Under the pieces are notes generated by a model. That model was not told the DNA's origin. It saw only the letters and a program-made list of their open reading frames with translations, and did not search any database. A stretch of 64,000 nt of DNA, from contig NKIU01000002.1 of NCBI GenBank assembly GCA_002256245.1, positions 496,001 to 560,000 on the forward strand, in the 5' to 3' direction. Source of the stretch: Pseudorhodobacter sp. PARRP1 (GTDB lineage: Bacteria > Pseudomonadota > Alphaproteobacteria > Rhodobacterales > Rhodobacteraceae). Both the position numbers and the translations under genes were made by a program. This document shows, piece after piece, positions 1 to 34,760 of the stretch. Every line of letters begins with the position of its first letter. Position 1 is the stretch's first letter.

Positions 1-186
1 ATCATCTCAGGCGCAGGCCACGACGCCTGCTGGATCAACCGCGTCGCGCCGACGGTGATGGTGATGTGCCCCTGCGTCGGTGGCCTGTCGCACAACGAAG
101 CCGAGGAAATCTCCCCGGAATGGGCAGCGGCAGGCACAGACGTTCTGCTGCACGCGGTGCTGGAAGTGGCGGGGGTGGTGGGGTGA
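1..186 (+). CDS. C-terminal end of an M20-type N-carbamoyl amino acid hydrolase / beta-ureidopropionase (partial)
   Basis: The window opens inside this gene; 61 codons remain before TGA at 184-186. The visible residues include SGAGHDA near the start and SHNEAEE further on, both typical of the C-terminal catalytic part of the Zn-dependent hydantoinase/carbamoylase amidase family (peptidase M20 fold). These enzymes hydrolyse N-carbamoyl-beta-alanine or N-carbamoyl amino acids, the last step of reductive pyrimidine or hydantoin breakdown. A dihydropyrimidinase 420 bp downstream supports the pyrimidine role. Substrate specificity cannot be told from the fragment. Confidence 0.8.
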   Translation: MISGAGHDACWINRVAPTVMVMCPCVGGLSHNEAEEISPEWAAAGTDVLLHAVLEVAGVVG

Positions 187-206
187 GCCTTTTCCCCAAA
201 CCCGAC

Positions 207-233
207 GCCGCCCCGGACGTGATCCGGGGCCTC
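207..233 (+). repeat. REP-like palindromic repeat, left arm
   Basis: A 27-bp copy containing CCCCGGACGTGATCCGGGG, which can fold on itself. It lies 20 bp upstream of the GIY-YIG gene. An inverted copy lies at 551-578, and the same element recurs as head-to-head pairs at 6542-6610 and 27116-27182. Confidence 0.85.
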
Positions 234-252
234 GACCCGAAGGGCGCATCCG

Positions 253-540
253 ATGGGATATTTCGTCTACATCATGGGCTCGCGTCCCGGCGGTGCGCTT
301 TACACCGGGTCCACCAACAACCTGCGCCGCAGGGTCGAAGAACACCGCGCAAAACTGCTGCCCGGTCATACCGCCAAATACAACATCACGCATCTCTATT
401 GGTTCGAAGAATGGCCGACCTATCACGAAGCCATGGAGCGCGAATTGCGGATCAAGGGCTGGAAGCGGGCGTGGAAAGACAAACTGATACTGGATGCAAA
501 CCCGGAATGGCGCGACGTTTCTGCGGATATTCCGTTCTGA
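253..540 (+). CDS. small GIY-YIG domain nuclease
   Basis: A 95-residue protein that is essentially one GIY-YIG domain. The N-terminal YFVYIM and the following LYTGSTNNLRRRVEEH carry the signature Tyr, Tyr-x-Gly and Arg/His residues of the UvrC/GIY-YIG nuclease fold (about residues 3-32). The protein ends shortly after the domain, so it resembles stand-alone UPF0213/YhbQ-like nucleases and not UvrC or homing endonucleases with DNA-binding tails. It is flanked by inverted REP-like repeats and interrupts a pyrimidine-catabolism gene group, so it is probably a passenger and not a pathway member. The start ATG at 253 leaves room for no longer N-terminus of the family. Its biochemical target is unknown. 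Confidence 0.85.
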   Translation: MGYFVYIMGSRPGGALYTGSTNNLRRRVEEHRAKLLPGHTAKYNITHLYWFEEWPTYHEAMERELRIKGWKRAWKDKLILDANPEWRDVSADIPF

Positions 541-550
541 GCAATGAAAC

Positions 551-578
551 GAGGCCCCGGATCAAGTCCGGGGCGGCG
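551..578 (-). repeat. REP-like palindromic repeat, right arm
   Basis: Inverted partner of the copy at 207-233, with core CCCCGGATCAAGTCCGGGG. It ends 26 bp before the dihydropyrimidinase start, so it forms part of that gene's leader. Confidence 0.85.
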
Positions 579-6541: not shown

Positions 6542-6610
6542 CGCCGCCCCGGACTTGATCCGGGGCCTCAGGGCGACAGGTTGAGGCCCCGGATCAAGTC
6601 CGGGGCGGCG
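6542..6610. repeat. REPIN-like inverted pair of REP elements
   Basis: Two REP-like copies (6542-6570 and 6582-6610) face each other across 11 bp and form one long near-perfect palindrome. The core is CCCCGGACTTGATCCGGGG. It lies between the operon terminator and the XRE regulator gene. Confidence 0.9.
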
Positions 6611-27115: not shown

Positions 27116-27182
27116 CGCCGCCCCGGACGTGATCCGGGGCCTCCGGTCACACACGAGGCCCCGGATCAAGTCCGGGGCGGCG
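27116..27182. repeat. REPIN-like inverted pair of REP elements
   Basis: Copies at 27116-27143 and 27155-27182 face each other across 11 bp, the same geometry as 6542-6610. The pair sits between the converging PHP and LysR genes and ends 6 bp before the LysR stop. Confidence 0.9.
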
Positions 27183-33197: not shown

Positions 33198-34760
33198 ATG
33201 AGCGATCTTGGCGATATCGGTGAAGTTTGCGAACCCGCACGGGCGCGGCGCTCGGGTGGGCGCACGGCGCGGGTGGCGCTGCGGGCGGCACCTTTGGCCG
33301 ACGATGTGAAGCCCGTGCGCGGCGGGATGGCGGGCGGGCAGTATAAACCGCTGACCGATGCCGGGATACAGCAGATCCATGCCGCAGCGCTGGATGCGTT
33401 GGAGCAGATCGGCCTGAGCCAAGCCCCGCCGTCTGGGGTGAAGCTGTTGACCGAAGCCGGCGCCATTCAGGGCGACGATGGCCGCATCCGGTTTCCGCGG
33501 GCCTTGGTCGAGGATATGCTGGCGGTGGCCGCGCGCGGCATCACGCTGCATGCGCGCGACCCCAAGCACGACCTGCATCTGAAGGGCAACAATGTGCATT
33601 TTGGCACAGCCGGGGCGGCGGTGCATATCGTTGATCCGATCAGTCTGGACTACCGTGAGTCCACCGCGCAGGATTTGTATGACGCTGCACGGCTGGTCGA
33701 TAATCTGGACAACATCCACTTCTACCAGCGCACGATGGTCTGCCGCGATGTGGTGGACAATCAGGAAATGGACCTGAACACGCTTTACGGCTGCCTTGCG
33801 GGCACCACAAAGCATGTCGGCACCAGCTTTTCCGACCCGTCACATGTCGCGGCCTGTTTTGACATGATCTACACCGTGGCGGGGGGCGAGGACAAATGGC
33901 GCGAGCGCCCCTTTGTCAGCAATTCCAACTGCTTCGTCGTCCCACCGATGAAATTCGCCGAGGAATCCTGCATCACCATGGAGGATTGCATCCGCCGCGG
34001 CATGCCGATGCTTTTGCTGTCGGCAGGGCAGGCGGGGGCGACGTCTCCGGCGCCGATCGCGCTGACGATTGTTCAGGCGATCGCGGAATGCTTGGCGGGC
34101 GTGGTCTATGCCAATGCGATCAAGAAAGGCGCGCCCTGCATCTTTGGCACCTGGCCCTTCGTGTCCGATCTGCGCACCGGGGCGATGTCGGGCGGCTCTG
34201 CCGAGCAGGCGCTGCTGACCGCCGGTTGTGCGCAGATGCACCATTTCTACGACCTGCCGGGCGGTGCTGCCAGCGGCATCTCGGACAGCAAACTGCCCGA
34301 CATGCAGGCCGGATGGGAGCAGGGCATCACCAACTCGCTCGCAGGCCTTGCGGGCCTGAACATGTGCTACGAGGCCGTGGGGATGCACGCGAGCCTGCTG
34401 GGCTTCTGCCTTGAATCGCTGGTCTTAGGCGACGACCTTCTCGGCCAGGCCATGCGCCTTGTGCGCGGCATTGACGTCACCCCCGACAGCACCAGCATCG
34501 AGGCGATGAAGGAAGTTTGCCTTGGCGGCCCCGGCCACTATCTGGGCAGCGATCAGACCCTGAAACTGATGCAGACCGAATATATCTACCCCGCCGTCGG
34601 CAATCGCATGTCGCCGAAGGAATGGAACGAGGCCGGCAAGCCGCTGCTGCTTGACGCGGCCATCGCGCGCAAGAATAGTATCCTCGCCCGCGCCGGAAAC
34701 GTGATTGATCCGCAGATCGACGCGATCATCCGCGCCAAATACAACATCTACTTCCAGTGA
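33198..34760 (+). CDS. MttB-family (trimethylamine/betaine) methyltransferase, non-pyrrolysine type
   Basis: A 520-residue TIM-barrel protein of the trimethylamine methyltransferase family, recognisable by the region SAGQAGATSPAPIALTIVQA and its overall length. There is no in-frame TAG, so it lacks the pyrrolysine of true MttB and belongs with the glycine-betaine-type (MtgB) branch. Those enzymes normally pass a methyl group to a corrinoid protein; none is encoded nearby. Strong AAAGGA precedes ATG. It probably performs the first demethylation of a quaternary amine. Confidence 0.88.
   Translation: MSDLGDIGEVCEPARARRSGGRTARVALRAAPLADDVKPVRGGMAGGQYKPLTDAGIQQIHAAALDALEQIGLSQAPPSGVKLLTEAGAIQGDDGRIRFPRALVEDMLAVAARGITLHARDPKHDLHLKGNNVHFGTAGAAVHIVDPISLDYRESTAQDLYDAARLVDNLDNIHFYQRTMVCRDVVDNQEMDLNTLYGCLAGTTKHVGTSFSDPSHVAACFDMIYTVAGGEDKWRERPFVSNSNCFVVPPMKFAEESCITMEDCIRRGMPMLLLSAGQAGATSPAPIALTIVQAIAECLAGVVYANAIKKGAPCIFGTWPFVSDLRTGAMSGGSAEQALLTAGCAQMHHFYDLPGGAASGISDSKLPDMQAGWEQGITNSLAGLAGLNMCYEAVGMHASLLGFCLESLVLGDDLLGQAMRLVRGIDVTPDSTSIEAMKEVCLGGPGHYLGSDQTLKLMQTEYIYPAVGNRMSPKEWNEAGKPLLLDAAIARKNSILARAGNVIDPQIDAIIRAKYNIYFQ

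Follow-up and report, generated by a model that had tools for sequence, protein, structure and literature searches.

A GIY-YIG nuclease gene between inverted REP arms: a candidate partner for CGTC-type palindromic repeats

Might a nuclease gene that lies between two facing palindromic repeats be the partner of those repeats, i.e., in the manner of a RAYT transposase and its REPINs? The question is raised by a locus found at the start of a 64,000-nucleotide stretch of DNA from Pseudorhodobacter sp. PARRP1. That stretch as a whole, here termed the window, holds a small GIY-YIG gene between two REP arms, and the same arms recur in it as short pairs.

The gene unit and its repeats

Read in order, the locus consists of the end of an M20-family gene, a left REP arm, the GIY-YIG gene, an inverted REP arm, and then an amidohydrolase gene. 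The 3' end of the upstream gene, of the M20 peptidase/amidohydrolase family (PF01546), is at 1..186 of the forward strand. It is followed by the left arm (206..233, forward strand), with tag CGCC at 206-209, stem at 210-217, loop at 218-222, stem again at 223-230, and tail CTC at 231-233. The GIY-YIG nuclease gene, of 95 aa, occupies 253..540 of the forward strand, and the right arm (551..578, reverse strand) is an inverted version of the left arm with one loop base different. A hydA-like amidohydrolase gene (PF01979; 605..2056, forward strand), which takes the name hydA from a first-pass annotation of the window, comes next. Both flanking genes are the usual neighbours in the family, on the left and on the right respectively. 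Each arm, as read from the sequence and with a consensus drawn over 14 pairs of the same genome, is a hairpin with an 8-bp stem and a 5-base loop, preceded by the 4-base outer tag CGCC and followed by the tail CTC. The first-pass annotation had described two REP arms facing each other over 317 bp around a complete GIY-YIG gene, and this is confirmed by the sequence along with the match to PF01541 (E 7.5e-16). The inverted-flank score at the gene is 27, versus a control of 614 window positions, one per 100 bp, of which four score at least 14 and none at least 20. The gene is present as one copy in its own genome.

Within Pfam the protein matches PF01541 only, with no HUH/tyrosine Y1 domain, and NCBIfam holds no family for it at E 0.001. 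The domain, with its conserved Y, Y, R, E, and N, fits the GIY-YIG nuclease superfamily. Conserved in the window protein are Y6, Y17, R27, H31, E64, and N83, and among these, presumably, are the residues which are catalytic in other GIY-YIG enzymes; those invariant in 31 relatives include R27, H31, E64, K68, N83, and W86, and Y6 and Y17 are almost invariant. As judged from dN/dS values of 0.036-0.063 among three genus members, two of the three pairs being close to saturation at synonymous sites, the gene is shown to be under purifying selection. The predicted structure (pLDDT 90.5) has as its closest fold UPF0213 (1zg2; E 1.2e-4), which is the sole match below 0.001, followed more weakly by Slx1 (E 0.0076). 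Slx1 is a branched-DNA nuclease, and the likeness of the modelled fold would suit action on hairpins.

Two short head-to-head REP pairs, REPIN-like in form, are found further along the window, at 6542..6610 and 27116..27182 (neither assigned to a strand). Both had been described as facing over 11 bp, which is so for the second pair but not for the first, in which 13 bp separate the tails. Allowing up to three mismatches, the core pattern is matched 13 times in the window versus 0.32 expected, a count reached in none of 100 shuffles; these 13 matches represent six exact sites, scored on both strands, plus one weak site. Genome-wide (4.35 Mb) there are 120 exact core matches and none to the reversed control. 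Among the first 100 copies listed are 35 head-to-head pairs, one tail-to-tail pair, two direct (HT) pairs, and 24 singles, with 22 of the 35 head-to-head pairs having an offset of 39 bp. No match to the repeats is found in Rfam at gathering threshold. As a separate observation, Rfam PYLIS_3 (the pyrrolysine insertion sequence, mttB) scores over its cutoff at 34278-34377 of the window, that is, in alpha-proteobacterial DNA.

Comparisons within the genus yielded no clean target site and no clean insertion of a short pair. For the 6542-6610 pair, the REP core (up to three mismatches) is missing from the nine orthologous spacers fetched from the genus. The site orthologous to that of the 27116-27182 pair is without the pair in one genome (G297) and has a single REP in another (G298). 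Comparison with G297 at C20, by way of overlapping alignments, looks like a local duplication in the PARRP1 genome rather than an insertion.

Framing of related genes and the repeats of their genomes

Relatives consist of 30 family loci (L031-L060) together with 63 of 66 loci from a species collection, three short partial matches (L116, L121, L123) having been dropped from the gene table. The protein tree holds 91 of these 93 loci, with L079 and L111 (framing scores of 25 and 9) left out as too short after their stop, and divides into clades of 62 and 29 rows with support of 100/99. It is from this tree that clade membership is taken, replacing a regex split. By 'framed' is meant here that an ungapped inverted match with a score of at least 14 exists between a gene's two 350-bp flanks. 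One locus (L089) is without an upstream flank, hence 61 members of the 62-row clade are testable.

Framed in this sense are 48 of those 61, among them 28 of the 30 family loci, versus 2 of 29 in the short sister clade. Controls are random positions, intergenic and other alike, and these pass in 5 of 885 cases in the longer loci and in 3 of 520 in window plus genus DNA. Framed tree loci span Proteobacteria, Thermodesulfobacteriota, Acidobacteriota, Chloroflexota, Cyanobacteriota, and Patescibacteria-type genomes, the non-proteobacterial records being mostly metagenome bins, in which stray contigs are possible; the sole Armatimonadota locus in the tree is unframed. It had been asked early on whether close GIY-YIG homologues are always repeat-flanked; 13 of the 61 fall below threshold, which counts against a partnership. 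Nine of these 13 (L038, L039, L063, L069, L070, L082, L087, L088, L091) bear a REP-like hairpin on at least one side and two (L067, L090) have other hairpins only. Scans for REP-like hairpins found none at L065, L093, L193, or L205. The frame of L059 is a long inverted repeat (GTCATTGCGAGG...), different from the short-hairpin REP kind.

Within the short sister clade, the genes at 448-699 of L097 and 9998-10252 of L108 are framed by exact inverted arms starting ACCCCCACACC, which lie close to both gene ends, score 13 and 20, and are unlike REP hairpins. These two loci come from one Omnitrophota bin and one Patescibacteria bin.

Of 34 matching records in a plasmid collection 17 were fetched, and nine of the 17 pass the framing test, including loci of Sinorhizobium meliloti, Azospirillum lipoferum, Novosphingobium, Sphingobium, and Shinella, and a Neisseria gonorrhoeae record (L197). 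Four others (L194, L200, L202, L203) are below threshold yet have hairpins on at least one side, the Planktothrix and Spirosoma homologues of this collection have no REP-like hairpins, and two (L204, L208) resemble another GIY-YIG group by motif. The Neisseria record has arms CCGTCATTCCCGCGCAGGCGGGAATC, called dRS3-like here because Di Nocera et al. equate Neisseria CGTC-1 repeats with dRS3. Its GIY-YIG homologue is surrounded by several such dRS3-like repeats, which would link dRS3 to this GIY-YIG family. Two gene settings may be recorded as well. The A. lipoferum unit (L196, 1489-1782) sits between sufB and sufC. The unframed, plasmid-borne Planktothrix homologue (L193, 1495-1779) has a type IIL restriction gene on one side and the DISARM gene drmA on the other, possibly a defence context.

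Do the arms also correspond to the enzymes they frame and to the repeats found elsewhere in the same genomes? Of 74 cases with a readable tag, 61 have the closest tagged arm facing outward. Eight loci (L069, L071, L075, L076, L078, L083, L084, L091) have a ATTCCGGC arm, with a 4-base loop, on one or both sides. Their genomes hold, in that order, 56, 19, 53, 12, 22, 28, 13, and 15 copies of ATTCCGGC and 0, 0, 1, 0, 13, 3, 1, and 0 copies of ATTCCCGC. The genomes of two ATTCCCGC loci (L074, L113) have 0 and 0 copies of ATTCCGGC versus 8 and 6 of ATTCCCGC. These ten loci are those whose own arm core was counted across the genome, and in each the matching repeat is more numerous than the rival core; the other 20 loci of the search were scored with ATTCCGGC and ATTCCCGC and not with their own core. 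Among short-clade genomes the ATTCCGGC/ATTCCCGC search gave 0/14 and 1/14. Arms of L068 and L073 have 9-base loops, and the 4-base-loop core occurs once in the genome of L068 and not at all in that of L073. Counting against a partnership are abundant repeats that are unlike the gene's arms, as seen at L066 (160 copies), L088 (21 and 47), and L064 (12).

Three family genomes carry two such genes beside different REP types, that is, TCCCCGC at L051 and GCCCCGGA at L210 (G003), GTCCCGGG at L041 and ACCCTCGGG at L211 (G230), and ATTCCCGC at L053 and ATACTCCGC at L212 (G054). G054 also has a third GIY-YIG gene, which belongs to another type and is without arms. In G003 a loose pattern for the first REP type has 12 matches (control 1), of which three adjoin the gene, and the second REP core has 11 copies. 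Against a partnership, L210 and L211 have upstream arms only and failed the inverted test, with scores of 10 and 9. Also against it, the arm type of G231 amounts to the two flanking arms plus one loose match (control 4), i.e., arms without visible dispersal.

That arm class tracks enzyme lineage is supported. Loop length, of 4 or 5, requires 10 changes on the protein tree versus 24.9 with shuffled labels, and none of 200 shuffles is as low; this is a check of clustering alone, and close relatives favour such a result. The check leaves out seven loci that have no hairpin with a loop of 4 or 5 bases, and L204, L208, L213, and L214, which by motif are other GIY-YIG types, were set aside beforehand. 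The labels of L042, L059, L067, and L090 rest on hairpins that possibly are not REPs, and L127 and L128 duplicate the genes of L061 and L062.

Repeat number, as had been suggested for comparison, correlates with presence of the gene. The gene is found in 31 of 295 family genomes, one of which (G120) is counted on a weak, unframed match. At least five copies of two REP cores, taken together, are seen in 17 of the 31 gene-bearing versus 14 of the 264 gene-less family genomes (odds ratio 22, p 2e-11, treating genomes as independent and ignoring kinship), and mean copies of the two cores are 18.9 with the gene versus 1.7 without. The remaining 14 of the 31 have fewer than five copies of the cores searched, which speaks against a partnership. 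In several of these low-count genomes (G025, G054, G231, G258) the gene adjoins REPs of other types, and the true correlation may therefore be stronger.

Repeats can also be numerous without the gene. Such family genomes include G116 (236 copies), G277 (31), and G105 (27). A profile search for the gene in the 14 repeat-rich, gene-less genomes plus G247 gave one marginal match (E 0.0099) in a 634-aa frame. Within the genus the gene is present in 3 of 15 genomes, having 120, 16, and 3 repeats, and the 12 without it have 58, 7, 6, and 1, along with eight zeros. The 58 copies are those of G297, which in the two regions compared has repeat sites in common with the PARRP1 genome, with flank identity of 83-90%. 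At least those repeats, therefore, would be older than the separation of the two genomes, and loss of the gene from G297 is probable. Equal abundance of repeats in genomes lacking the gene was to tell against the idea; G116 and G297, rich in repeats without the gene, go part of the way, but overall repeats are commoner where the gene is present.

Position of the gene and rival explanations

The main rival to a role in repeat spread is a hairpin-processing host enzyme. That is, a structure-specific host nuclease might trim or remove REP hairpins or cruciforms, for the sake of genome hygiene or expression control, with the gene's arms as sites of autoregulation in cis and no dispersal taking place. 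A pure remover should reduce repeats, yet mean copies of the two cores are higher with the gene than without (18.9 versus 1.7), and arm class tracks enzyme lineage and, in ten loci, dispersed copies as well. On the other side are the weak similarity in fold to Slx1, the retention of repeats by several genomes without the gene, and the gene itself, which is stationary, mostly single copy, and under purifying selection. On balance this explanation is unlikely, if still worth serious consideration.

How stationary is the gene? Homologues of the left neighbour, the right neighbour, or both adjoin it in 24 of the 31 gene-bearing family genomes (both in 21), with one of the 24 (G003) having upstream arms only, and in 28 of the 31 there is one gene match per genome. 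A fresh mobile insertion at the window site is ruled out by the same neighbours being found across genera. The idea of a mobile insertion into a catabolic gene group is not supported, given the same 24 of 31. The gene does not look recently mobile; given those shared neighbours it looks instead to be stationary and repeatedly lost, or else gained at a fixed site. From 11 of the 14 other genus genomes the spacer separating the M20-family gene from hydA was fetched. It holds the unit in two (G305, G300), is short in five (G299, G307, G301, G247, G296), and is filled by other sequence in four (G297, G298, G304, G306). From the nine spacers without the unit (of the L160-L170 set) the REP core, at up to three mismatches, is missing. 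Whether empty sites exist between the carbamoylase, i.e., M20-family, gene and hydA had been asked, and 9 of 11 spacers are without the unit, but none is a clean empty site, as divergence hides the exact junctions. The spacer (187-604 of the window) is possibly an insertion hotspot.

A full transposon, with the short pairs as internal-deletion derivatives (MITE-like), could explain why unit and pairs have the same arms and why arms are missing from nine of the eleven genus spacers. It is nonetheless quite improbable, as one match is the case in 28 of 31 genomes and the same neighbours in 24 of 31, while repeats number tens in many genomes. Several autonomous copies at different sites, as belong to an insertion sequence with MITEs, were not found. 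Slightly less probable still is a homing-like gene, the nuclease of which would cut the empty M20-family gene/hydA spacer and be copied in, with REPs as flanks or by-product. The fold is a homing fold, presence is patchy (31 of 295) and mostly at one site, and gene distances correlate weakly with those of the neighbours (Mantel r 0.11 and 0.19, versus 0.37 for the neighbours with each other). That weak correlation is not decisive, however, since gene and neighbour trees reject each other but so too do the trees of the neighbours, and homing leaves unexplained both the dispersal of the framing repeats and their match to genome-wide families. Coincidence, in which REPs gathering in intergenic gaps happen in some cases to flank the gene, accords with REPs being mostly intergenic (excerpts of PMC3733652) but is scarcely credible, chance flanking being largely ruled out by the controls (5 of 885 and 3 of 520, at random rather than solely intergenic positions, versus 48 of 61) and by the 2 of 29 of the sister clade.

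A proposed partnership and its comparison with known systems

The reading preferred here, and judged reasonably probable, is that the GIY-YIG gene encodes the cognate enzyme of its genome's CGTC-type REPs, that is, as a two-part system like that of RAYTs and REPINs but with a GIY-YIG enzyme in place of a HUH tyrosine transposase. Such a partnership with an unrelated nuclease had been the central suggestion of the first-pass annotation, and it is largely supported, by framing, by the link of arms to enzyme lineage, by the match of arms to genome where searched, and by the correlation with copy number. As the partner so far lacking for this widespread class of repeats, the enzyme is a strong candidate.

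The gene would in this partnership remain at one place between its REP arms, these serving as a nearby source or as control sites. Its enzyme would recognise the hairpins or cruciforms that REPs of its own family form and may cut near the hairpin foot, beside the CGTC/CGCC tag, with cutting presumably driving the rare copying of head-to-head REP pairs to other intergenic sites. Hydrolysis of DNA by GIY-YIG enzymes passes through no covalent intermediate, so host repair would probably finish the transfer. More broadly, the GIY-YIG nucleases of this clade could be a second, independently evolved class of REP propagators, spreading CGTC-type palindromes in many phyla, including the dRS3-like repeats beside the Neisseria homologue, by a route that relies on hydrolysis and repair and differs from known transposase chemistry; the chances of this seem about even. 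Should the proposed partnership be right, the same alliance with palindromic repeats would have arisen convergently in two unrelated nuclease folds, and the routes by which DNA spreads within bacterial genomes would include GIY-YIG chemistry. A small, specific candidate enzyme, moreover, makes the open question of CGTC REPs directly testable.

No link of GIY-YIG genes with REPs appears among the literature matches listed, as drawn from open PMC text (preprints excluded). With small GIY-YIG proteins of the UPF0213 type and with Slx1 the present protein shares fold and conserved residues. Prokaryotic Slx1-like nucleases are described in PMC1564403, available excerpts of which mention no association with repeats; the short sister clade here, too, is mostly unframed.

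The likeness to RAYTs and REPINs is found in a gene framed by REPs of its genome's own family, usually as a single copy at a fixed locus (here one match in 28 of 31 and the same neighbours in 24 of 31), in dispersed head-to-head pairs, in more repeats with the gene, and in repeats persisting where the gene is absent (for the RAYT side, excerpts of PMC8049555 and PMC3686654). Thus E. coli REPINs are commoner in RAYT-bearing genomes (Park 2021), and repeats remain, as here, in genomes without a RAYT (Nunvar 2013), according to those same excerpts. The differences are in the enzyme, which is GIY-YIG (PF01541), of putative activity, rather than HUH/tyrosine, and in the tag, which is CGCC here and CGTC in many relatives versus GTAG in RAYT REPs.

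In Di Nocera et al. 2013 (PMC3733652, cited here and below from excerpts), CGTC-tagged REPs form a large class that spans five phyla but is mostly alpha-proteobacterial; these repeats "apparently lack a dedicated transposase", and that text ties no enzyme to them. They include Neisseria dRS3 (= CGTC-1), have TGTC and CCTC as named tag variants, and mostly have CCA as unpaired tail. Window repeats appear to resemble these, having like them an outer tag, a stem of 8-9 bp, and a loop of 4-5 bases (8 and 5 in the window), and with head-to-head dimers predominating (here 35, among the first 100 copies listed). Window copies differ in having tag CGCC and tail CTC rather than CGTC and CCA, while among relatives' arms many have a CGTC or TGTC tag and many a CCA tail. 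Where those excerpts report no associated transposase, there is here a GIY-YIG gene that is framed by such repeats.
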